Of a stretch of DNA of 64,000 bases, positions 44,408 to 64,000 are shown piece by piece. The stretch covers positions 12,572,632 to 12,636,631 of the forward strand of contig NC_087377.1 of assembly GCF_963675165.1 (NCBI RefSeq), given 5' to 3'. The notes under the pieces are model-generated. The model was not told where the DNA came from and searched no databases. It worked only from the letters and a program-made list of their open reading frames with translations. The stretch's first letter is position 1, and each line of letters opens with the position of its first letter. A program made the position numbers and the translations under genes. This DNA is from Halichondria panicea. Lineage: Eukaryota; Porifera; Demospongiae; Suberitida; Halichondriidae.

Positions 44408-47400
44408 ATGGATGCTACAAAAACTACTATTGTTTTGCTAATAGTAACCTTGTCAGTGACTCATTTTGTTGATTGTGGAGTCACCCTGATCACTCCTTCA
44501 ACACTGGCCAGTTTTCCCAAAGACTTTACTAACTGTAGTGGTACGTGCGTTGAACCATCATGCAGAGTTGTTCATGTTTCTCAACCACAGAATCTACATT
44601 TTGTTTTGGTTTACAAGTTGCATAATAATTGCTGCATCAATGTATACACACAGTCACAGCTTTTAGATGCGTAAAGGTTTCATAGTACCATAAAACCTTG
44701 ATTTAAAGCGAAGCTCCAATGATACGATATCTTAAGCTCAGGCAACTTTCTAACCTCTAAAAGTAGCAACAGGCACACCTTATTAAATGACGGAGCTACA
44801 TGCACATGATATATTTTGGCAGAAATTATCAATATATAGCTTGTTTTTGCGCTCTCAATCTAATGTGTATAATTATAATTGAATTTTGTTTGTTGCAGCT
44901 AAAGGAGATATTGGGAAGGTCCTGAATTTCTCATTGAATTCTTATGATTTTAGAAGAGGAGATACGATTGTTGGAAACCTGACATATTTCTTGTGTAAGT
45001 CTAATCACTCATGCACATGACCCTCTGCATATGGTCACATGTTAGCTATGTAAGGTTATATCAACACTATAGACAGTACAATATCAGAGAGACTTGACAT
45101 AATTAATAGCAAGTCAGAGTTTCAGTAAAATAATGAGCAATAAGGAATTTCCAAATTTTATATTTTGCTTTTTTTGTACACAGATCATGACATTTCTGGG
45201 AATGTAACACTCTCAGCATGGGGAAGGCATGGTGTTGTGCCTTACTTTGGTGATACTCTGAATTTATGTGATACCAAAGTGATCTCATGCCCACTGAAAG
45301 CCGGTGAAGGACATGCAGTCTTCAAGTATCCACTAGGCCAGTTTCAATCAATTGTAAGTGATTGTTAATTCAATTAACCAGCGATTTGCCTTTTTTAATC
45401 TATTAATAGTAAATCCAACTCAGGTTTCCTTCCTCCTACAGAAGTACTTAACTGGTTTCTTTCCTCCTATACTTCAATTGATTGTATAGCCTTCAGTATT
45501 ATACATAAATTTAATTATATGGTATGGATCTTCTTGTCTTTTTTAATCCAAAATAGTAAATCCAACTCAGGTTTCTTTCCTCCTACAGAAGTACTTAACT
45601 GGTTTCTTTCCTCCTATACTTCAATTGATTGTATAGCCTTTCAGTATTATACATAATTTAATTATACGTATGGATCTTCTTAATCCAAAATAGTAAATCC
45701 AACTCAGGTTTCCTTCAGCCAATAATACTATGGCTTCTTTCCTTCTATACTTCAATTGATTGTAGCCTTTCAGTATGGTAGCACATATACATGATATATA
45801 GTTATGGATCTTCTAGCTTATAGAGTTTCCTTCGCCAATAATTCTGATCAACAGTTTATATTAGGAAGAGTAATGTACGCAACAGTTGAACTTAAAACCA
45901 TAGTATAGGCCTATAGGCGTTGTCCAGCCTATACTGCGTGATTTTAAGTTAAATAAGGAAATTTGCTATGAATAACATTAGTGATTGCATGCATGCATGC
46001 ATGCATGCATGGTCTTTCCTATTATCTATAGCGCCATGCATCTGAAGTGGGTGCATGGTTGTGGTTACAATAGTGAGTATTATTGTGACATATGTCTGCC
46101 TCACAGTCTTCCTACTCTTTCGAACTCTTGATAGTGAGTATTATTGTGACATAAATGTCTGCCTCACAGTCTGCGGACTCTTTCGAACTCTTGATATAAT
46201 TATAGTGTGGGGGTGTAGGTACTATATAGGGGTTGCTATAGCATAATTTTGAGCATAATAATAATAGGCATACTTTTTTGGTGAGAATTATTCTGGCATA
46301 ATAGGTGCCTTTATAAAATATATAATAGGCATGCAGGTTTTAGAAGTACAGGTCAGTACGAATCTTAGTATAACATTTTTTAAGTCGAATGGTCGTGCTG
46401 GAAAAGTATATCTTCTTGGCATTCTGTATTATAGTGTTAATCATGTAGCCATTATTAATTTTATATGACATGGGGTCTATGTTGTACTTTGGAGGAATAA
46501 TGTGGGAATAATAGGCGATTTAAAAAGAATAATGAAAGCACCGCGGGTGCTGATACCTCGGTGGAGGTGCCAAAGCTACATAACATAAAACTACTAATAG
46601 CTAGCTTTTATACACACAATTATCATGATGATATAATTTGCTGCATGCAATCAACCGAATAGTGGGTAATGATCAACCATGATTGTTGTTAAAAACGATC
46701 GATGCCAAAAGTTCAAGTCTAATATTAATGGCTGCAAGTCAGCAGAGCCTTGCAGCTCTCTGCTCACTCTTGCAGCTACCAATAGCTAGCGTTCTAGTGC
46801 AGAGCTAACTACTAAGTAGAGTAGTAACACTCGGTGAACAAGTTTTGCTACGGACTCTTCTGAAAAGGCTGCAATGGCATTCCAAGTAAGCAAAACTAGG
46901 CATAACTCGAGAACGAAGCATTATTTTGCAAATCCACGAATTAAAATCCAAGTAAACATGACTAGAAGCCTATAGAAACTCTTACTTGCACTTGATTCAT
47001 CTTTGGGCAGCTGTAGCGGTCTACACACACACACAGACACACACACAGACACACAGACACACAGACACACAAACACACTACCGTATACCTCGCTTGCGCA
47101 TGCGCACCGAGGCATAATAAGCAGTTTGAAAAGGATAATATAGGCAGTTAACTTGAGCATAAAAAATAGCATAATAGGAATAACTCGAGCATAATCACAA
47201 AACCTTAGTAGGTACTTGTATACACACAGAAGCCCTAATTTACTGTTGAACCTATAATTATATGCTGTAAATGCAATACATGTATATAAAAATTATACGC
47301 TAATTGGTCCAACTATAATTATTGTGTCATAACTGCAGGGCTGGTATGAAGTTCATCTTGTTGTTTCTGATGAGAATAAGACAGAAGTAGCTTGCTTGGA

Positions 47401-51592: not shown

Positions 51593-52598
51593 TATTTTGC
51601 AAGGTCTATGCAAACAGCTGTACCTAGTGAATTTTACTACAAAACATTTGGCACCCACTTAAATTTGGTCACTTAAAATGTTTTTTCCAATTAAATTCTG
51701 TACTTAAACAAACTATTGTGGTATCTTTGTCAACACAAGCATACAACTACAAATTTCTGTTGGAAAAAATACTAGAGTGGTAGTGCTATTAAATGCAGAC
51801 AGAATAGCTGAAAAGCAGTCCTGTTTTAAACAGCTGTCTCATAATTGGTTCCGTCTCATAACACCTTCTTCTACTCTAAACTAAGAAGCTTGAACCATAG
51901 ATAGTAAAGGGAAGGGATTGGAAACAGCTCAGGTGACCAATGTATTGCCCTTGGGAATTCTGACACCATGCGTGTTGCATTGCGCAAGTGCTGATTGCGA
52001 TTTATTGCGAGCCAGCTGCAAAGAAGAAAGTGGAGGAAACTGCAGTAAGCACTGGCAGAGCTAGTCTGTATGTACATTATCCATAGTAAATGTATGATTT
52101 GCATAATTTACCAAATTTGTTGGATCATCAGAGCTCTTATTAGCACTATTTTACATGTATTTAGCTAGAAAATTGACCATGTATGAAACTTTGTGGGGGA
52201 ATATCTGGAGCTAGGAAGTAGTCACGGTTGCTTGAGAGTGATCAGAGTGTAGAGGAAGCATTGAAATATGCAGTAGGCATAGCCAAGTTGAGCATTATGC
52301 TGTTTATTGTTAGATATTTGCATAGCAGTGTGACAATATGGATTCAAAAGTACATTTGTTTGCGGGGGAGTTGCTGGTTAACAATAGATTGTACATGGCT
52401 ATTGTTTAGTTCTACATGTTACTTAATGATCCCCATGTGCAGTAAGAAAATATTTTCCTTGCTAACCGTTATAGTTTTGGAAATAATTATGCTAATTCAA
52501 ACTTACCCGAAAATTGCCGTAATTGCTTTCCTAGGTATGGGAGGAAGAAAATTCAAACTTTACAACCCAAAGAAATTGGAAAAAAAAAGTGTGCTGTC

Positions 52599-55500
52599 AT
52601 GTCACTCCCAGTTTCAATTAAGCTAACACCTGATATCAAAGTATTCCCGATATCAATTCCTCTCAAGGCACTGGAGCAAGACACAGACTACACAGTGAAG
52701 CTTCCTATCCAACACTTTTTTTCCGCTCCGCTCCTTACTACACAGGCGTTGAAACTGAGGCTAGAGAAGAAAACTCTTCCACTTCTTTGGAGCATGCATC
52801 TGGGATGCCAAGATTCTTTGCTGTTGTGCAAAATGAGCCTGGCTGAAGGTATACATGTAGCACCAGTTGTACAGGTTTCTCTGCGCATTAATGAAGATCT
52901 CTCGTGGAGCGTTTCATTTGTTGGTCGAATCATTCCTCCGAATGCACCATCAATGTTGAGCCTCCCACCAACGATCAAAACCATCGATGACATGACTACC
53001 CTGCTGGATTTTTTCGCCAACTGTCAACTTTGCTGTGGTAGCAAGGAAGAGAAACTGTTGAATGTAATCAAACACAAGGACTCAACACTCCAAGGTAAGT
53101 GAATATTACATGTGCACTTGTGCAATATTTCATTACTTTCTTTCAGGTCAAAACTCTGCAACGATTGACACATCCTCGTGTCAGCCCACAGTGAGGCATA
53201 GAGACTGCCACTACCTCCTACCACCATCTTCTAGCTGTGTACGATGCCCAAAATGCACTCGCCATCGCTCTTCTCTTCTAATACAATCTAAGCGCCTGGA
53301 AAATTCTACTCCATCAAAAAAAACCAACTATCGATTCCTCTCCAAACAAGGACTTGTTGATCGAGTACAACTGGTTCACTCACAAGTGAAAGTGATGACA
53401 AAAAGAAATTTGAGACTGAAGAAGAAACTCGAAACTCAATTCGAAGAAAATGGTATGACTGTGAGTGAGGAGACACACAATGACCTCGCTACAGTTATTG
53501 AGAGGAATTCCGACACAGTTGACTCTCTGCCTCCCAACTCATTTCAACGCCTGTTCTGGGAGCAGCAATTAATAGCCATGTCCAAGCCAAGTTCGAAGGC
53601 CAAGGGTGTACGTTACCATCCTCTCATGATCAGATGGTGCTTGTATCTTCAGTATCATTCAAGTGGAGCGTATAATGTAAGTGTTCAGCATAATTCTATA
53701 TGCTGTCTTATTCTACTTGTTGATTTTCCTCTTTTACTTTTGCAGCTCTTGAGAGAGAGTGGGATTCTCAAACTCCCATCTAGCCGCACCCTGCGTGATT
53801 ATACTCATTTCGCTAGTGCCAAGCCAGGATTTTCAGTCGAGGTGGATAAGATGTTAATCGATGCTTCTAAGGTTGCTAGTTGTCCAGAGCGAGAAAAATA
53901 CATACTGCTTCTCCTGGACGAAATGCACGTCAAAGAAGATTTAATTTTCAACAAGCATTCGGGGGAGCTGATTGGATTTTCCAATCTTGGTGACATCAAC
54001 AACCATTTGGAAGTCTACTTACGGTCTCTTGACACTGACATTGAACAGTCACCTCCCCTTGCCAAATATTTATGGTGCGAGGGCTATTTACGAAGATGCA
54101 GTTTGCGTACGCACAGTTCCCGTGTTGCTCTCTGACGGGCGACAAACTGTATGCACCATTCTGGAATGCTCTTTCCCGGATTGAAAACTGTGGACTAAAG
54201 GTTTGTATACTTAAGTATAATTATGTAGTATTCATTTTATTATACTCAGGTGCTATGTGTCAAGAATAAGTAATATACTCAGGTGCTAGGTGTCAAGTAT
54301 AAGTATTAATTTTATTATACTCAGGTGCTAGGTGTCACAATGGACGGGTGTGCTGTCAACAGACGATTTATGAAGTTGCACCAATCCTCCGACTCATTTT
54401 TCTACAAAATCACGAACCCCTACACCTCAGAGAGTCGGCCAATTTTTTTCTTCTCAGATCCTCCTCACCTTATGAAAACCGCTAGAAATTGTCTATTCTC
54501 TACAAAAAGAGAAACTGTGGGTAAGTATACTTGCAGATATAGCTATACTGGCGTGTATTCAATGGCATACATGTGTTTATTATTAGAATGAGGGGAAAGA
54601 CATCACGAGGCAGCACGTTGTGACTCTTTATGAAGAGGACCAGAGGGGTGGTCTGGGTCTAAGAGTCCTACCCAAGCTTAAGTACGAGCACCTTCATTTG
54701 ACCTCTTTTTCCAAAATGCGAGTGGATTTAGCTGCACAGGTAAATTTTATGTGTATTTATTAATGTTTGTAAGTATGCAATCACTACAGGTGTTGAGTGA
54801 GTCCGTTTCAAAGGCACTTACTTTAAGGGGTGGAGAGGCAGCCGAAGGAACAGCCTGTTTCTTGCTACTCATGAATAAATTCTTTGATTGCACAAATGTG
54901 AAGAATTATTCAGCTGGTGCCAGGTCACCCAAACCATTTCAGCTACCCTACTTAAGTGCGGAGGGTGAGAGGCTAACGGTACTAGGCCTAACAATTACGC
55001 ACGGTTTTATCAGTAAATTTTATATCATATACCGTACCCTCGCGAAAATACGCCCACCCTTTTCTGCAAGAAGTCTAGGCTTATTAGGGGACTGGGCGTT
55101 TAATTAATCACAAACGGCAAGTTTTCATTCGAACATACGCCCACCCGCGGCCTCAAATCTAGGTCTACACTTTGCTCTATGCCAATTCTTTATTAATTTA
55201 TTGTATTTTCATTTTAATACATAGTATGAACATTTTATACAACAACAATGTTATAAACTAATGCATGAGTATGATTAAAGCATGACAAGAGAATGAACAT
55301 AAGGAGTGGACTCTGGCTCTATTCGTTGATGTTAGATGTAGCAGAAACTTCTCGAAGGATGGTAGGTCATACTCCTACAGAGCAGCTATCAGGTACTTTG
55401 TTTCAGAAAACCAAGGCAAGGTAACCTGCAAAATTAGCCTGTGTGATAACTTTCTTGGACTTGTGTTTTCCTTTCTCAGCATATAGGACTACTTGTTCCC

Positions 55501-56261
55501 TGCATATACATCTTCAGGGGGCAAACAGATCCATACAGAGAAAGTTATAATGTCTGATCTTGGTCCAGCAAGGAGTATAGTCTTACTAGCTACTTCCTAA
55601 AACTTACTTTCTTCACTAAAATTAATAGTAAACATGTGGCATTCAGCTACTGCGCATGCTCAACTTCTTATTCTGGGTGGGCTTATAATCGAGTGAAAAT
55701 ACCCTCGTGCAAGGAAGCAAAAGAGGGGATGGGCGTTTATTCAAGATGGGCTTATTTTCGCGAGGGTACGGTAGTGGCTGAAGGATGTCTTCTTGGTATA
55801 TCTGGACAACTGGGAGATTTCTGTCAAAGAGAGAGGGGCTTTCAGCAAGAGGGAGCAGAACAAGATGCAGCTGAGCCAAGAAACATTGCTAGGACTTCGA
55901 ATGACAAGTTCGTGTATTATTATAGGCGCATAGCTATTCATGACCATTTTTCTGTTCAGTTTTCTCTCTTATCGAGTTGGTGAGATTTGTATTTACAATT
56001 CCTGGGGTGAAGTCATTTCTTACTCAAAGGATCTGCCAAGACCCCCTAGAAAATTTCTTTGGATGTCAAAGACAAAGGGGAGGGACACACGACAATCCCA
56101 CCGTTGCCGAATTTGAAAAAAACATGCAGGCATTAAGAGTGATCAATTCCTTTGCGAGAGGTCCTGCCAAGGGTAATTGCAGAGGATTCAGTAATGAAAG
56201 TATTTTGACTGATAAAGAGAACACACCATTACCTAAACGTCGCAAGACTAGAAAAAATTAA
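52599..56261 (+). CDS. P-element/THAP9-like transposase, eight exons, frameshifted
   Basis: Exons: 52599-53094, 53147-53676, 53746-54200, 54325-54516 (donor GTGGGT, or G/GTAAGT), 54587-54739, 54790-54978, 55775-55907 and 55960-56261; about 816 codons. Landmarks of P transposases: a Cys-rich CVRCPKCTRH, MIRWCLYLQYHSSGAYN, SRTLRDYTHF, the first catalytic Asp in ILLLDEMHVKEDL, VTMDGCAVNRRF with the second Asp, DPPHLMKTARN, HLTSFSKMRVDLAAQ and the C-terminal DPLENFFGCQRQRGG...ALRVINS. No THAP zinc finger was found upstream. One base is missing near 54071: the frame leaves AKYL, and MVRGLFTKMQFAYAQF follows in another frame. An intron between exons 6 and 7 holds a 740-bp MITE. The protein would cut and join transposon DNA with an RNase H-like core. 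It is probably dead, though splicing and most of the frame are preserved. Confidence 0.8.
54241..54337 (+). repeat. Triplicated 3' splice-site region
   Basis: TATACTCAGGTGCTA(G/T)GTGTCA occurs three times (from about 54241, 54273 and 54316), spanning the intron end and the first codons of the V-L-G-V-T exon. Only the third copy continues into the coding sequence. The others are candidate alternative acceptors that would add out-of-frame or stop-containing sequence. Confidence 0.6.
55032..55771. mobile_element. 740-bp TA-flanked MITE inside a transposase intron
   Basis: The left end CCGTACCCTCGCGAAAATA and right end TATTTTCGCGAGGGTACGG are exact inverted copies; ACGCCCACCC and GGATGGGCGT lie just inside. 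TA precedes (55030-55031) and follows (55772-55773) the element. Without it the host intron would be 54 nt (GTACTAGG...ATATCATATAG). The right TA plus the next G recreates the AG acceptor of exon 7. No transposase frame was seen inside. The ends resemble those of 34595-35034. Confidence 0.8.
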
Positions 56262-57279
56262 TTTTTGTAATCACATACCCGCATTGCCAATTTCTATATA
56301 TCCATGCGATGCATGCAGCTGTTTTCCCAACATTAAATTTTCATGTTATAAGGGTTGACCATTATAATAATTATTGTACTATGGTTGCACCAAAGATCAA
56401 AGGCTTCAGTTGTAGTTTATACTACTTATACAACCTGTCTGACCACAGCCATGGTATATGGCAGTTATACCCGTACCCTAGTGTATAACTGCCATATACC
56501 ATGGCTGTGGTCAAACTACATGTACAGCTAGAACTGAATACAGTATCCCACCTTTGCAATAAAATTGACACACTGTTTCAATTAAAACAATGACACACTA
56601 CTCAATTCAATCAATATTAGCAATATTAGAGTTAGAGAGAATTCAATACAAAACAGACTACTAATGATTTTAGTCAACATAAAAAGAGCCAAGTTCGAGC
56701 GATGAATAGTTCCAAAAAGGAGGCAAATTTCAAAGAACTCCGTGATCGTGAATCGAACGATACTGGTTTGTTTGTGTTGCTTTTTTTCAACTTTCAACAT
56801 TGGTTGTCACAACCTGCTTATTACATTGCTGCATGGGACCAGGAGCAGTAAGAAGGGTCCAGACTGCCAAGTGGGATCAGGTGTCATATACGGCACCTCG
56901 ATAATTAGATTCATAAACGTGTGGGCGGGACACAGGAAGCCATGTGCTTGCTTTGGACACAGGAAGCCATGTGCTTGCTGCAAGTTTACCGCGAAATTGA
57001 AGAAGTAGAATACAAACTATGTCTTTTTGGTGATAGGACCAGTGTTGTTTGGTGGAGTGGCAGGTATCATCCAGTATTTAAGACAGAGACACTTGCTGGC
57101 ATCTACCTGTGATTTGACTGATAAATAATTATAAATAATAAAAATCAATTATTAATTATAAGCAATGTAGCAGCAACTGATAAATAATAATAAAATAAGC
57201 AATGTAGCAGCAACTGTTTAATAAGCAATGTAGCAGCAACAAATTATATACGACCATTCACAATAGGTGTAACATCCCA

Positions 57280-60200
57280 ATGTCCGAAAAACCACGACGT
57301 GATGTGTCTGATCAAGTTAGTTGGTGGTGCAGGCAATGCAAAACAAGAAAATCAATAAGACACGGAAGTTTTTTTTCCAAATCAAAACTAACTCTACAGA
57401 AGTGGCTGATGATAATTCACTTATGGGCGTGGGAGTTCCCTGTAACTAGTACAGACCAGCTGGCAGAAGTGGAGAAAAAAACGGCTATACCTTGGTATAA
57501 AAAGTCACAATTCATGAATATAATTAAGCCTCTATAATGACATCAATATTATGGTTACATTCCATTCCACATAATTAAGTGTAACATATAATTATGTCAC
57601 TACTGTAACCAATGTAACATCAATCACCACTGTAACAACTGTAACACTTGTCACCACTGTAACAACTGTAACACTAGTCACCACTGTAACAACTGTAACA
57701 CTAGTCACCACTGTAACGACTGTAACATTTGTCACCACTGTAACAACTGTAACACTAGTCACAGCTATAACAACTGTAACACATGTCACCACTGTAACGA
57801 CTGTAACACTTGTCACAACTGTAACAACTGTAACGCTAGTCACCACTGTAACAACTGTAACACTTGTCACCACTGTAACACTAGTCACCACTGTAACAAT
57901 TGTAACACTTGTCACCACTGTAACAACTGTAACACTAGTCACCACTGTAACAACTGTAACGCTAGTCACCACTCTAACAACTGTAACACTAGTCACAACT
58001 GTAACAACTGTAACGCTAGTCACCACTGTAACAACTGTAACACTTGTCACCACTGTAACAACTGTAACACTAGTCACAACTGTAACAACTGTAACGCTAG
58101 TCACCACTGTAACAACTGTAACACTTGTCACCACTGTAACAACTGTAACACTTGTCACCACTGTAACAACTGTAACACTAGTCACCACTGTAACAACTGT
58201 AACGCTAGTCACCACTGTAACAACTGTAACACTTGTCACCACTGTAACACTAGTCACCACTGTAACAATTGTAACACTTGTCACCACTGTAACACTAGTC
58301 ACAGCTATAACAACTGTAACACATGTCACCACTGTAACGACTGTAACACTTGTCACAACTGTAACAACTGTAACACTAGTCACCACTGTAACAACTGTAA
58401 CGCTAGTCACCACTGTAACAACTGTAACACTTGTCACCACTGTAACAACTGTGACACTTGTCACCACTGTAACGACTGTAACACTTGTCACAACTGTAAC
58501 AACTGTAACGCTAGTCACCACTGTAACAACTGTAACACATGTCACCACTGTAACACTAGTCACCACTGTAACAATTGTAACACTTGTCACCACTGTAACA
58601 ACTGTAACACTAGTCACCACTGTAACAACTGTAACGCTAGTCACCACTCTAACAACTGTAACACTAGTCACAACTGTAACAACTGTAACGCTAGTCACCA
58701 CTGTAACAACTGTAACACTTGTCACCACTGTAACAACTGTAACACTAGTCACAGCTATAACAACTGTAACACATGTCACCACTGTAACGACTGTAACACT
58801 TGTCACAACTGTAACAACTGTAACGCTAGTCACCACTGTAACAACTGTAACACTTGTCACCACTGTAACACTAGTCACCACTGTAACAATTGTAACACTT
58901 GTCACCACTGTAACAACTGTAACACTAGTCACCACTGTAACAACTGTAACGCTAGTCACCACTCTAACAACTGTAACACTAGTCACAACTGTAACAACTG
59001 TAACGCTAGTCACCACTGTAACAACTGTAACACTTGTCACCACTGTAACAACTGTAACACTAGTCACAACTGTAACAACTGTAACGCTAGTCACCACTGT
59101 AACAACTGTAACACTTGTCACCACTGTAACAACTGTAACACTTGTCACCACTGTAACAACTGTAACACTAGTCACCACTGTAACAACTGTAACGCTAGTC
59201 ACCACTCTAACAACTGTAACACTAGTCACAACTGTAACAACTGTAACGCTAGTCACCACTCTAACAACTGTAACACTAGTCACAACTGTAACAACTGTAA
59301 CGCTAGTCACCACAACTGTAACACTTGTCACAACTGTAACAACTGTAACACTAGTCACAACTGTAACGACTGTAACACTTGTCACCACTATAACAACTGT
59401 AACAACTGTAACACTAGTCACAACTGTAACAACATGCCACCACTGTAACATCTGTAACGCTAGTCACAACTGTAACACTTGTCACCACTGTAACACATGC
59501 AACAACTGTAACACTAGTTCTTATAGTACTTATAGTCTATAGTGGTGCCAGACTAAAGTGTTACAGTAGTGACGTGTGTTGCATTGGTGACATGTGTTAC
59601 AGTTGTTACAGTGGTGACAGATGTTACAGTTGTTACAGTAGTGACATGTGTTGCATTGGTGACATGTGTTACAGTTGACAGTTGTTACATTTGTGACTAG
59701 TGTTACAAGTGCTACAGTTGTTACAGTTGTGACTGGTGTTACAGTGGTGGCTGGTGTTACAGTTGTTACAGTGGTGACGTGTGTTGCATTGGTGACTAGC
59801 GTTACAGTGGTGACATGTGTTGCATTGGTGACATGTGTTACAGTTGTTACAGTGGTGACAAGTGTTACAGTTGTTACAGTTGCGACTAGTGTTACAGTTG
59901 TTACAGTTGTTACAGTTGTTACAGTGCTGACAGATGTTACAGTTGTTACAGTGGTGACAGATGTTACAGTTGTTACAGTGGTGACATGTGTTGCATTGGT
60001 GACATGTGTTACAGTTGTTACAGTGGTGACTAATGTTACAGTTGTTACAGTGGTGACAAGTGTTACAGTTGTTACAGTTGTGACTAATGTTACAGTTGTT
60101 ACAGTGGTGACTAGCGTTACAGTGGTGACATGTGTTACAGTGGTGACAAGTGTTACAGTTGTTACAGTGGTGACTGGTGTTACAGTTGTTACAGTGGTGA

Positions 60201-61764
60201 CTGGTGTTACAGTTGTTACAGTGGTGACATGTGTTGCATTGGTGACATGTGTTACAGTTGTTACAGTGGTGACAAGTGCTACAGTTGTTACAGTTGTGAC
60301 TGGTGTTACAGTTGTTACAGTGGTGACTGGTGTTACAGTTGTTACAGTGGTGACATGTGTTGCATTGGTGACATGTGTTACAGTTGTTACAGTGTTGACA
60401 GATGTTACACTTGTTACAGTGGTGACTAGCGTTACAGTTGTTACAGTTGTGACTAGTGTTACAGTTGTTACAGTTGTGACTGGTGTTACAGTTGTTACAG
60501 TGGTGACAAGTGTTACAGTTGTGACTGGTGTTACAGTTGTTACAGTTGTGACTGGTGTTACAGTTGTTACAGTGGTGACAAGTGTTACAGTTGTGACTGG
60601 TGTTGCAGTTGTTACAGTGGTGACAAGTGTTACAGTTGTTACAGTGGTGACTGGTGTTACAGTTGTTACAGTGGTGACAAGTGTTACAGTTGTTACAGTG
60701 GTGACTGGTGTTACAGTTGTTACAGTGGTGACATGTGTTACAGTTGTTACAGTGCTGACAGACGTTACAGTTGTTACAGTGGTGACTAGCGTTACAGTGG
60801 TGACAAGTGTTACAGTTGTTACAGTTGTTACAATGTTGACAGATGTTACAGTTGTTACAGTGGTGACATGTGTTACAGTTGTTACAGTTGTTACAGTGGT
60901 GACTAGCGTTACAGTTGTTACAATGTTGACAGATGTTACAGTTGTTACAGTGATGACATGTGTTACAGTTGTTACAGTAGTGACATAATTACATGTTACA
61001 CTCCATGCGTACGTACACTTATTGGAATGGAATGTAACCATAATATTGATGCCTATACCCTCATTATAGAGGTTTAATTATATTCATGAATTGTGACTTT
61101 TTATACCAAGGTATAGCCAAAAAAACTGCGATCGATGTATACCAGTGGTTGAGGGAAGTTTGTTCCGCCAAGCTTGTCAACACACCGTGTATTCTGGGTG
61201 GGCCTGGTATAACAGTGCAGATCGATGAATCTCTATTCCGACACAAACCAAAGGTGAATTAATATATAAATTATACATTAGTGTACGTTTGTGCTGTACA
61301 CATACAAACAGCATCACAGAGGAAGAGCTACAACGCAAGATATATGGGTGTTTGGTTTGGTAGATACATCGGTAACACCAGCTCTAGGATACATGGAGAT
61401 TGTGAATGACCGAAGAGCTGTCACTCTATTGCCTATCATCCAGGCTCATGTAGCTCCTGGAACAACCATTCACTCAGACCAGTGGGCAGCGTACAACAAC
61501 ATGCTTTCTCTTCCCAATGTCAGCAGTTATTCTGCTGTAAACCACTCACTGCATTTTGTCGACCCGGTAACTGGAACACATGCCCAGAATGTGGAATCCT
61601 ACTGGAACCGTGTCAAAACAAAATTCAAGAGGATGAAAGGATGTGACAGTCATCAACTTCCAAGCTATTTGGATGAATTTATGTGGAGGGAAAGATTTAC
61701 CACTAGCCACAAGGATGCCTTCAACTCCATTCTTGGGGAAATAGCACAACAATACCCTGTGTGA
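57280..61764 (+). CDS. Merlin transposase (ISXO2/IS1595-like DDE), interrupted
   Basis: 57280-57482 reads SWWCRQCKTRKSIRHGSFFS and KLTLQKWLMIIHLWAWEFPV. The frame is cut by a foldback insertion after LAEVEKKT and resumes at 61127 with AIDVYQWLREVC...ITVQIDESLFRHKPK. A 58-nt intron (61254-61311) is followed by HHRGRATTQDIWVFGLVD to the stop at 61764. Catalytic residues are visible: Asp in QIDES, Asp in IHSDQWAAYNN and Glu in HAQNVESYWNRVK. The first half of the zinc finger is probably in an upstream exon; TGTAACATC just before 57280 would add a Cys, so the true start is not known. Apart from the insertion the frame is intact, implying that the foldback arrived recently. Confidence 0.85.
57483..61118. 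mobile_element. 3.6-kb foldback element made of inverted minisatellite arms
   Basis: The unique ends GGCTATACCTTGGTATAAAA (57483) and the inverted copy (ending 61118) match over ~110 bp. AAAAAAAC flanks both sides (57475-57482 and 61119-61126), an 8-bp target duplication within the Merlin frame. Inside, 57591 to about 59515 is an array of a 27-bp unit (CACCACTGTAACAACTGTAA then CACTAGT). From about 59535 to 60985 the array is the reverse complement (TTACAGTTGTTACAGTGGTG), so the whole element is one imperfect palindrome centred near 59525. No transposase is present. GG ends and 8-bp duplication are compatible with mobilisation by a Merlin transposase (inference). Confidence 0.9.
57591..60985. 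repeat. 27-bp minisatellite, two inverted arrays
   Basis: The period is 27 nt, nine codons, so all frames without a stop in the unit stay open over long distances. Variants within units are CGC/CAC for the CAC codon before TAGT, TTGT for TAGT, missing half-units and ACTCTAAC. Higher-order blocks recur (for example, the stretch around 57830-58010 resembles 58500-58690 and 58815-59000), indicating unequal exchange. The left array is ~1.9 kb, the right ~1.45 kb with more variants (GCATTGGTGACATGTGT). Confidence 0.9.
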
Positions 61765-62061
61765 GAGTGAGAATGGCAGTTCTTACATCTCTACCATTAT
61801 TCAACATTATTTAACCAGGATTTTAGTCAGCCATTGGTATTATTTAACACTATATAGTCAACCATTGGTATTATTATTTTACTGACTCACTCAGTCACTG
61901 TTTTTGGTTATGTAGCCAGATCTTTTCTAACTCTTTGCTGTGTACATTGATTTTGTGTTGCTAAGGACTTGCACATGGCTTCCTGTGTCTCGCCCACTCC
62001 CGCCCACACGTTTATGAATCTAATTAGCGAGGTGCCGTATATGACACCTGATCCGCCAAGT

Positions 62062-62486
62062 GTTTCTCAGACTAAAGAGACTGCACTGCACTGGGCCAGT
62101 ACAGTAGGCTTGTGGAATGATATTTTGGGGTACATTTGCACTCTTTGTAGACAAGTAGCACCAATGTACTTTCTTGAAGTGCCTTCTATAAAGATGCAGA
62201 AACACAGCCTTCACAATTGCTTGCTTGAATCATAGACGCTTGCTTGAATCAGCCATCGCTTTTTAAAAAAATAGCAAATTCATTGCATAGCTATAGCAAC
62301 AGTGACGTCAAACAGTAGTTATAAGCATATTCATTGAAGAAGCATGACAGGAAGTAGCTAAACATAGTAGTACAGTTCTAAACATAGTACAAGCCAGTTA
62401 AACTATGTTTAACTATAACTTATAGCCAGTATACATGTACAGGATATAATTATTATACTTACTATAATTATACTAAAATTATACGT
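62062..62486. other. Non-coding part of the P-superfamily element
   Basis: No exon was recognised between the right Merlin duplication and the reverse-strand gene. TATA-rich segments and an imperfect repeat (TAAACATAGTA twice near 62360-62395) are present. Confidence 0.4.
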
Positions 62487-63173
62487 TCATGTAGAGTTCA
62501 GTTTCTTCCTCAGTGCCTTGCTCTTTTGAAGGCTTGTTTTCGTTGAAGACTTGTAATTCTCTACCCAAACACTTGCAAAAGAGAAACCTCTTATTGTGAT
62601 ATATAAATCAGTAGCTAGTTTTAGTAATTGTTGGCTCTCTTCTTGTTCCCAATCTCCTCCCACAATCGACCAATAAAACAAAACGTCGTCATTACCTACA
62701 ACAAACTTGCATATCTGCTCCAGATCAAAACATCGTTTTACTGTTAAATGCTTTCGTAACTCCAATTCCATGGCAAGAAATACCTGAAAAACGTCATTTC
62801 ATTTACACGGGTCAATCCCCCACGATCAATGGCATCAACCCAATCATTTGCTGTGCCACCTTCTTTTTCATCATCAAGGAGGTCCCAGATACAAAGTTGT
62901 AGTTCTTCTTTGAGCAGATTAGCAGATTTCTTTAATTTTTTTCTTGACTTCTGACTGGAGACTTTGGTGAACATGTCATCATTAACAACTCTTTGAACAG
63001 CAGACAGAACAAGAGAAACAGCTGCAAAAAGTACAAGGAAATGGGGTTAAGGCTACTATACTACCATACACTTGAGCTTTATAGTCTAAGGAATTATAAT
63101 AGCTAGGTGACTTTGTAGAATAATAAAAACTTACACGGAGAGACACTCATACTCGTATGCAAAGTAGTAGCCA
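62487..63173 (-). CDS. Second gene of the P-superfamily element (TIRGFSFAS protein)
   Basis: Reverse-strand exon 1 is 63173-63134 (MATTLHTSMSVSP) and exon 2 is 63021-62487, joined in phase 1. The product is about 178 residues: lysine-rich SQKSRKKLKKSANLLKEEL, then WVDAIDRGGLTRVNEMTFF, VFLAMELELRKHLTV and the C-terminal block LYITIRGFSFASVWVENYK with a basic end (LQKSKALRKKLN). One base is missing near 62785 (between TFF and VFLAM), breaking the frame in this copy. I recall TIRGFSFAS-type sequences in cnidarian and sponge hypothetical proteins, often near transposons, but cannot name a family. The gene begins about 90 nt inside the right TIR and converges on the transposase. An accessory role in transposition is inferred only. 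Confidence 0.6.
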
Positions 63174-63301
63174 TTCTCTTGCAAAGATTTCCAATAAAAA
63201 AGCATCAAGCTGTACTTCCTGTCAATTTCCGGTGCGACACGCATGGGCCGCGCGAAATCCATGTGTTTCCAATCCCTTCCCTTTACTATCTATGCTTGAA
63301 C

Positions 63302-64000
63302 TTGCTGCATGTTAGCAGCTAGCTAACACTATACACGCGGCCTTTATTCGAGGCACCCTCCATATTTACAGCTGAAGTGATCCCGTACCAAAAACAGTGG
63401 AAAAGGGTCACTACAATAGAAAGCTAGAATTGTGACTTGTTTGTTGCTCTGTTAGCTGACTCTGGGATCCTACTCCATCCAAGAGTCATACTTCTCTGAG
63501 ATTCTTTGCTGTGATCCTAGACTAGGACCTAGTTCACCTCATGTACCACTAAAACTCTGTTCTCAATGTTTCAGCATGTCTCCAGTCTGGTTTAGTTTTA
63601 TTGCTCCTGAGTTGCTGTGCTAGACAGCTCAGTCATACATCACTACATGCACTGCATTATATCACTCTTTTGGTTTCTTGTCACCAGCCGAGGGTTTGCA
63701 CTTCAGTGCTCTAGTTATATGTATGGATAAAATTACTTCAATTCAAAATCCTTCTTCACCAAGAAGTTGTGTGGCTATCCATGCTGTAAACGCAGTGCTG
63801 TGGCATCCATGCAGGTGAATAGAAAAGCTCATCACAAACAAACAAACAAACAGACCAACAGACTACTATGCCCGTGGTGGGTAATAATAATAATTAAAAA
63901 CAAAAGTTCAGCCTCTAATTAGTCAATCTTAAACGATGTTCGACAGCTATATAGGACCTCACAGACAATATTACTTCCTGCATAAAAAAAACATCAGCAA
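63302..64000. other. Right flank of the P-superfamily element; no gene seen
   Basis: No supported exon on either strand. An (ACAA)n-like run lies at 63835-63853. Confidence 0.4.

Follow-up and report, generated by a model that had tools for sequence, protein, structure and literature searches.

Layout of the locus and the P-superfamily element

The window, a stretch of 64,000 nucleotides from Halichondria panicea (C1:12572632-12636631 of a 131-Mb, 39-contig assembly, in which all genome searches were run), contains five different transposable elements, all of known kinds, exceptionally well preserved and four of them nested (Table 1). A P-superfamily element holds a Helentron-type element, which holds a Merlin element, which holds a foldback element, so that the nest is four deep; a TA-flanked element lies apart, in a predicted P intron. 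The genome copy counts given below are lower bounds.

Table 1. Elements and their parts, in window coordinates. TIR, terminal inverted repeat.
Feature	Position	Strand	Remarks
P-superfamily element, 11,399 bp	51896-63294	+	Ends, family copies, domains
P TIRs, 31 bp	51896-51926 / 63264-63294		31/31 identical
P target duplication CTTGAAC, 7 bp	left 51889-51895, right 63295-63301	.	
P transposase gene, several exons	52446-56258	+	Pfam matches
Possible second P gene, convergent to transposase	62487-63175	-	Putative
TA-flanked non-autonomous element, 740 bp	55032-55771	.	TA at 55030-55031, 55772-55773
Non-autonomous Helitron2/Helentron-type element (filed by structure of ends), TTGTACTATGG ... TTTAACTATAAC	56375-62419	+	No target duplication
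Helentron-type 3' end	62385-62419	+	End of inverted left-terminus copy, 8-bp-stem hairpin, 5-nt tail
Merlin element, 5,181 bp	56874-62054	+	1,537 bp without foldback
Merlin TIRs	56874-56947 / 61971-62054		56/57 terminal bases match
Merlin target duplication GCCAAGTG, 8 bp	left 56866-56873, right 62055-62062	.	
Merlin transposase exons, split by foldback	57208-61758	+	Catalytic part 61300-61758
Foldback element, 3,636 bp	57483-61118	+	58-bp TIRs, 57/58 terminal bases match
Foldback target duplication AAAAAAAC, 8 bp	left 57475-57482, right 61119-61126	.	
Foldback arrays of a 27-bp unit, in opposite orientation	57596-59518 (~73 units); 59596-60985 (~53 units)		

Once its inserts are removed, the P element measures about 4,612 bp. 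Its exons match PF21787 (2.7e-9, 53740-54132), PF21789 (7.2e-10, above the cut-off) and, below the cut-off, PF21788, the GTP-binding insertion (E 1.1e-3). PF21787 was matched again in another frame (54045-54203; 0.0052, below the cut-off); RNase H N-terminal matches are therefore found in two frames near 54045-54132, so that the window copy of the transposase looks frameshifted. The RNase H domains with a weaker match to the GTP-binding insertion, as in the P element and Galileo, and a duplication within the 7-8 bp range place the element in the P superfamily. Target duplications of 8 bp occur in this superfamily, a THAP DNA-binding domain is one of its features, and the TIRs of the Drosophila P element measure 31 bp, the same length as in the window. 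The 7-bp duplication is shared with Galileo, for which 7 bp is given in PMC3573991. The present element differs from the superfamily in its possible extra antisense gene, for which no Pfam match above the cut-off was obtained, and in that no THAP match was found in the seven P stretches scanned, which cover part of the exons.

The P TIR occurs 150 times genome-wide at ≤3 mismatches, with no occurrence of the backward control. Ten TIR pairs, taken from at least 15 close inward-facing pairs among the matches listed (100 places), all carry a duplication that is exact over 7 bp and extends no further, and the window copy does likewise. Three other long P copies show 98, 96 and 93% identity. The flanks of copy L043 have no matching duplication and its left TIR is altered, while a single TIR was seen in each of L044 and L045.

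The TA-flanked element belongs to a family of which 40 copies were scored from 352 candidates. In the window copy, 19/19 terminal bases of the inverted repeat pair, with mismatches beyond, and TIR and TA are present in all six copies examined, this one included. With its TA duplication, its TIR and no gene identified, it resembles the TA-target non-autonomous elements, which we take to be Tc1/mariner-like, an assignment made here from the TA and the TIR only. The site is empty in the three other P copies that span it (L043 and L044 by sequence, L110 by alignment junction), and the element was inserted after P, relative to which alone it can be placed. The initial annotation was right about the TA duplication and the separate insertion; it had put the element in the P transposase, whereas inspection of reading frames and splice signals points to an intron, with the element adjoining the 3' acceptor ATATAG/TGGC and the AG retained.

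The Helentron-type element and the Merlin element within it

Four nested transposons, with exact target duplications at every level and Merlin directly inside P, had been described in the initial annotation. The four are all real, as judged from domains, family copies and empty sites, and their boundaries, inverted repeats and duplications were exact to the base on recheck. The count of four and the universal duplications did not stand, since P and Merlin are separated by a level without duplication: the direct host of Merlin is an 856-bp element of Helentron type (56375-56873 plus 62063-62419, one copy of the 8-mer counted), which is itself in P. The P copy L043 goes straight from window position 56375 to 62420, with the insert missing to the base, so that more than Merlin is absent from it. 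L043 is the one clean empty copy; L044 also lacks the insert but has a local deletion, and L110 and L045 end short of the site. Because TT is present on both sides in the window, the ends can be shifted by two bases, and 56377-62421 is equally valid.

Internally deleted P copies exist, and the deletion in L044 is at the same spot, as would be expected if the 856 bp were native P sequence deleted from the other P copies, in which case there would be four elements only. Against this, copies of the left part (40 scored from 85 candidates) and of the right part (40 scored from 83), the window's included in both, were found in the genome. The 39 other left parts, at 91-98% identity, have the identical starting base in all cases, and all lie more than 100 kb away from any other P-transposase match. 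The flanks differ among the left ends read in 18 distinct copies, 17 of which are preceded by TT, and TTTAACTATAAC closes 14 right ends, namely that of the window, those of six among eight long loci and those of seven among ten slices, with TT following in 7 of the 14; this right end is missing in L048, L049, L076, L079 and L081. With L043 empty at exactly these positions, native P sequence is a very improbable explanation.

In the flanks of the copies whose ends were read, no consistent target duplication was seen. The left 10-mer TTGTACTATG recurs inverted as CATAGTACAA at 62383-62392. The 3' hairpin has an energy of -4.7 kcal/mol, a value reached by 7 of 200 shuffles; the left end can form a 4-bp stem, but this lacks significance, since 30 of 200 shuffled sequences give an equally good fold. 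Among the eight copies read for the hairpin loop, extra palindromic sequence amounts to 119 bp in five and to 91 bp in a sixth, while the right end is missing from the other two; the window copy has no loop insert. Helitron2 elements and HINEs are described as having T-rich targets and short inverted repeats placed asymmetrically, with a hairpin downstream of the right-hand repeat (PMC3627910, PMC5148889, PMC4067079). The asymmetric terminal inverted repeat (10 bp at the left terminus, inverted and subterminal on the right), the TT target and start, the 3' hairpin and the lack of duplication are shared with this group (DINE-1, HINE), and the structure of the ends suggests a Helitron2/Helentron-type element. 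The palindromic loop sequence of some copies and the non-significant 5' hairpin are points of difference. A retroposon with a constant end and truncation was also considered and dropped, as a constant right end was found.

Merlin is absent from all eight Helentron-type copies examined, each of which has a single 8-mer (GCCAAGTG in seven, GCCGAGTG in one). Its exons match PF12762, DDE_Tnp_IS1595 (7.1e-18). The definition of the superfamily in PMC8101967 calls for GG ends and duplications of 8-9 bp; the IS1595/ISXO2-type DDE transposase, the TIR starting with GG and the 8-bp duplication make the present element an ordinary Merlin member. The TIR length of about 80 bp given earlier is fair, since with an indel allowed 74 bp pair with 84 bp at 87%. 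Four further copies were found at 97%. Merlin transposase matches in the genome number 24, window included. Where ends could be read among the window and 20 other loci, the window copy, L024, L112 and L113 combine GG ends with a duplication exact over 8 bp; L022, L023 and L028 have both ends but no matching duplication, and L025-L027 showed one end each.

The rate of chance duplications was estimated from random position pairs. In window 1-51700, an exact 7-mer abutted 128, and an exact 8-mer 60, of 1,000,000 pairs. Inside 51700-63500 the corresponding figures, 270 and 214 of 200,000, were above these rates, which we attribute to the foldback arrays lying there. Considering the inverted repeats, the empty sites and the low chance rates together, none of the target duplications of the locus is due to chance.

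The foldback family and the enzyme that moves it

That the innermost element sits in the Merlin transposase exon, as proposed initially, agrees with the AAAAAAAC duplication and with the four Merlin copies examined (L022-L025), which all lack the foldback and have a single AAAAAAAC. Assembling arrays of 27-bp units is difficult, and the array lengths may be wrong.

Twenty-eight exact copies of the terminal 20-mer make up 14 two-ended elements of 1.1-4.7 kb, on C1, C4, C5, C6 and C9; at ≤3 mismatches there are 43 matches, and 4 for the backward control. An exact 8-bp duplication is present in 11 of the 14, all different, and the C9 foldback has none. The assembly difficulty of the arrays is what could be said for the nest, or its foldback core, being an assembly artefact. 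The other foldbacks with the same ends, 10 of the 13 with an 8-bp duplication of their own at unrelated sites, and the empty sites found for every level make an artefact extremely improbable.

Identity was calculated for 13 of the 14 elements over their left-most 1,480 bp, leaving gaps out of account, and ranges from 93 to 100% in the 66 pairs without L004, and from 73 to 75% with L004. The foldbacks L002 (C6) and L003 (C5) align without gaps over the 1,480 bp at 99.9% identity, an argument for recent movement; from such comparisons the family looks recently active.

Drosophila FB is a foldback element with long inverted tandem-repeat arms. Having such arms, and being mobile with target duplications, the present family is one of foldback elements. 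It is like Tetris, Tm1, Drosophila FB and Galileo in its long inverted arms of short tandem repeats, its variable length and the lack of transposase in the copies read: none was seen in the four foldbacks covered (window, FB1, FB2 and L004), whose open frames look like repeat translations only. It is set apart from these named foldbacks, as they are described, by duplications of 8 bp only, GG ends and arrays of a 27-bp unit.

Since none of the foldbacks read showed a transposase, the family is most likely moved in trans. Its GG ends and 8-bp duplication are shared with four Merlin elements of this genome (the window's, L024, L112 and L113), whereas duplications of 8-10 bp are given for Tetris (PMC4079207) and for Tm1, a Mutator foldback in which most are 9 bp (PMC3169594). 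A Merlin-type transposase is therefore the first choice, to which we would give roughly an even chance. The main competitor is a transposase of the Mutator superfamily, which has been put forward for most foldbacks. There are 31 MULE transposase matches in the genome, and Tetris and Tm1 have been assigned to Mutator in the same two sources. This does not sit well with the exactly 8 bp found in the 11 individually matching foldbacks and in the outer flanks of a pair on C4 (see below), when compared with the spread in Tm1, nor with ends that begin with GG, a Merlin hallmark (PMC8101967); we regard Mutator as a credible candidate, somewhat less likely than not.

Two other enzymes were set aside. 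Target duplications of hAT elements have a consensus; those of the foldbacks do not show it, and their ends begin with GG. The P relatives of this genome leave 7 bp.

The presence of the MULE matches counts against a Merlin-type enzyme, and so does the search for a partner carrying the foldback ends. Of the other 23 Merlin loci, 20 were searched, and neither there nor at the other places covered was an autonomous Merlin with the foldback TIR found, so that the foldback is not filed as a Merlin member; the 8-mer GTATAGCC occurs at 4 of the 20 loci, in contexts unlike the foldback end. No autonomous partner was found either by a search with the 113-bp end (33 matches) or with the 20-mer pattern at ≤3 mismatches (43 matches). 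Six weaker end-like sites (L056-L061) had no inverted partner of the foldback end within 3 kb; L056, L059 and L060 look like decayed foldback ends. No Merlin foldback appeared in the open-access literature listings, a weak negative.

The C4 pair and the history of the locus

Neither of the two C4 foldbacks (C4:2577920-2582610 and C4:2612953-2617670) has a matching duplication of its own. CATAAATT is common to their outer flanks, while the two inner flanks are unlike one another and unlike the outer pair. Aligned over 4,664 bases, the two elements show 99.94% identity, with a further 81 gap columns in the arrays. Searches for the interior of 30 kb, which brings the whole block to about 40 kb, used its outermost 1.5 kb on either side as probes. 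Both ends belong to a family clustered around C4:1.93-2.33 Mb on the other strand: the best near-full match of one is at 92% (C4:2329850-2331348), with shorter pieces up to 98%, and the other is matched in parts at 82-86%, its junction carrying a high-copy repeat some 150 bp long. With neither probe did a near-full-length match exceed 92%.

Joint movement of the pair as a macrotransposon fits all four flanks, and the family may have moved a block of about 40 kb on C4. Sharing of CATAAATT could alternatively result from chance or from homologous recombination, for example of a foldback-bearing circle re-integrating into a resident foldback. The near identity of the two elements is also expected from recombination or conversion, and no donor copy was seen for the interior. 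Outside the arrays, any one pair would match exactly over 8 bases by chance at a rate of about 6 in 100,000, and differing inner flanks are what joint movement should give when the two foldbacks had been inserted separately; chance or recombination is nevertheless a serious possibility, if short of an even chance. The most far-reaching reading of macrotransposition would make this the first Merlin-driven foldback family, recently or still active and moving large blocks, with the pair and its interior, part of a local repeat or gene cluster, inserted as a unit with a single 8-bp duplication outside. Taken as a whole, this proposal is less likely than not.

For the window, positions and nesting order can be read directly. 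The empty-site search, carried out on paralogous copies in the same genome, found an empty site for each insert within the nest. The order of P, Merlin and foldback given in the initial annotation also holds, with the Helentron-type step missing between the first two; from empty sites and nesting the order is P, then the Helentron-type element, then Merlin, then the foldback. The locus is very probably a stack of five independent insertions. As regards the enzymes that we infer, the P element would have entered CTTGAAC by cut-and-paste with a 7-base stagger. The Helentron-type element, whose ends suggest rolling-circle replication, would then have entered P near 56375 without target duplication. 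Merlin would have followed, entering it at GCCAAGTG, and then the foldback, entering the Merlin transposase exon at AAAAAAAC, each by cut-and-paste with an 8-base stagger. In a separate step, the 740-bp TA-target element would have entered the P intron.

The locus thus offers a clean, relatively dated insertion series, with several transposition mechanisms in 11 kb and a paralogous empty site for each level, and it shows that element counts made from target duplications miss rolling-circle elements. The elements themselves being of known kinds, the foldback family and the C4 pair are the parts most worth following: the orphan foldback is a testable case for which transposase drives foldbacks, and foldback macrotransposition has a natural candidate in the C4 pair.

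A foldback pair on contig C4

Two foldback copies on contig C4 are 99.94% identical to each other and have a single 8-bp duplication in common over a span of about 40 kb, while their inner flanks are unlike. The pair and its 30-kb interior, which stems from a local repeat or gene cluster, are a candidate macrotransposon.

Features and their coordinates
Feature	Location	Strand	Position or loci
Foldback pair with interior	C4:2577920-2617670		L062, L063, L007, L008, L016, L017
Possible spliced antisense gene	window 62487-63175	minus	between P transposase and right TIR
Near-perfect palindrome, ~75 bases	window 56440-56513		within Helentron-type element

The 20-mer GGGTATACGTTGGTATAAAT, with three mismatches to the foldback end, was found at seven places, all of them on contig C14 (C14:537836 and six others). 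At L058, the single C14 locus read, it had no inverted partner within 3 kb.

Palindromes of the Helentron-type elements

Six copies (L047, L050, L052, L053, L054 and L055) carry 91–119 bp of palindromic sequence in the loop of the 3′ hairpin, which is missing from the window copy. The palindrome in the window copy folded as DNA at −36.4 kcal/mol, a value equalled by 0 of 200 shuffles.

Elsewhere in the window, 45386-45776 is a tandem repeat (unit of 147 bp, 2.8 copies).

A possible antisense gene

The possible spliced gene of the P element gave no Pfam match above the cut-off. Its DNA is also found in L043, another long P copy.
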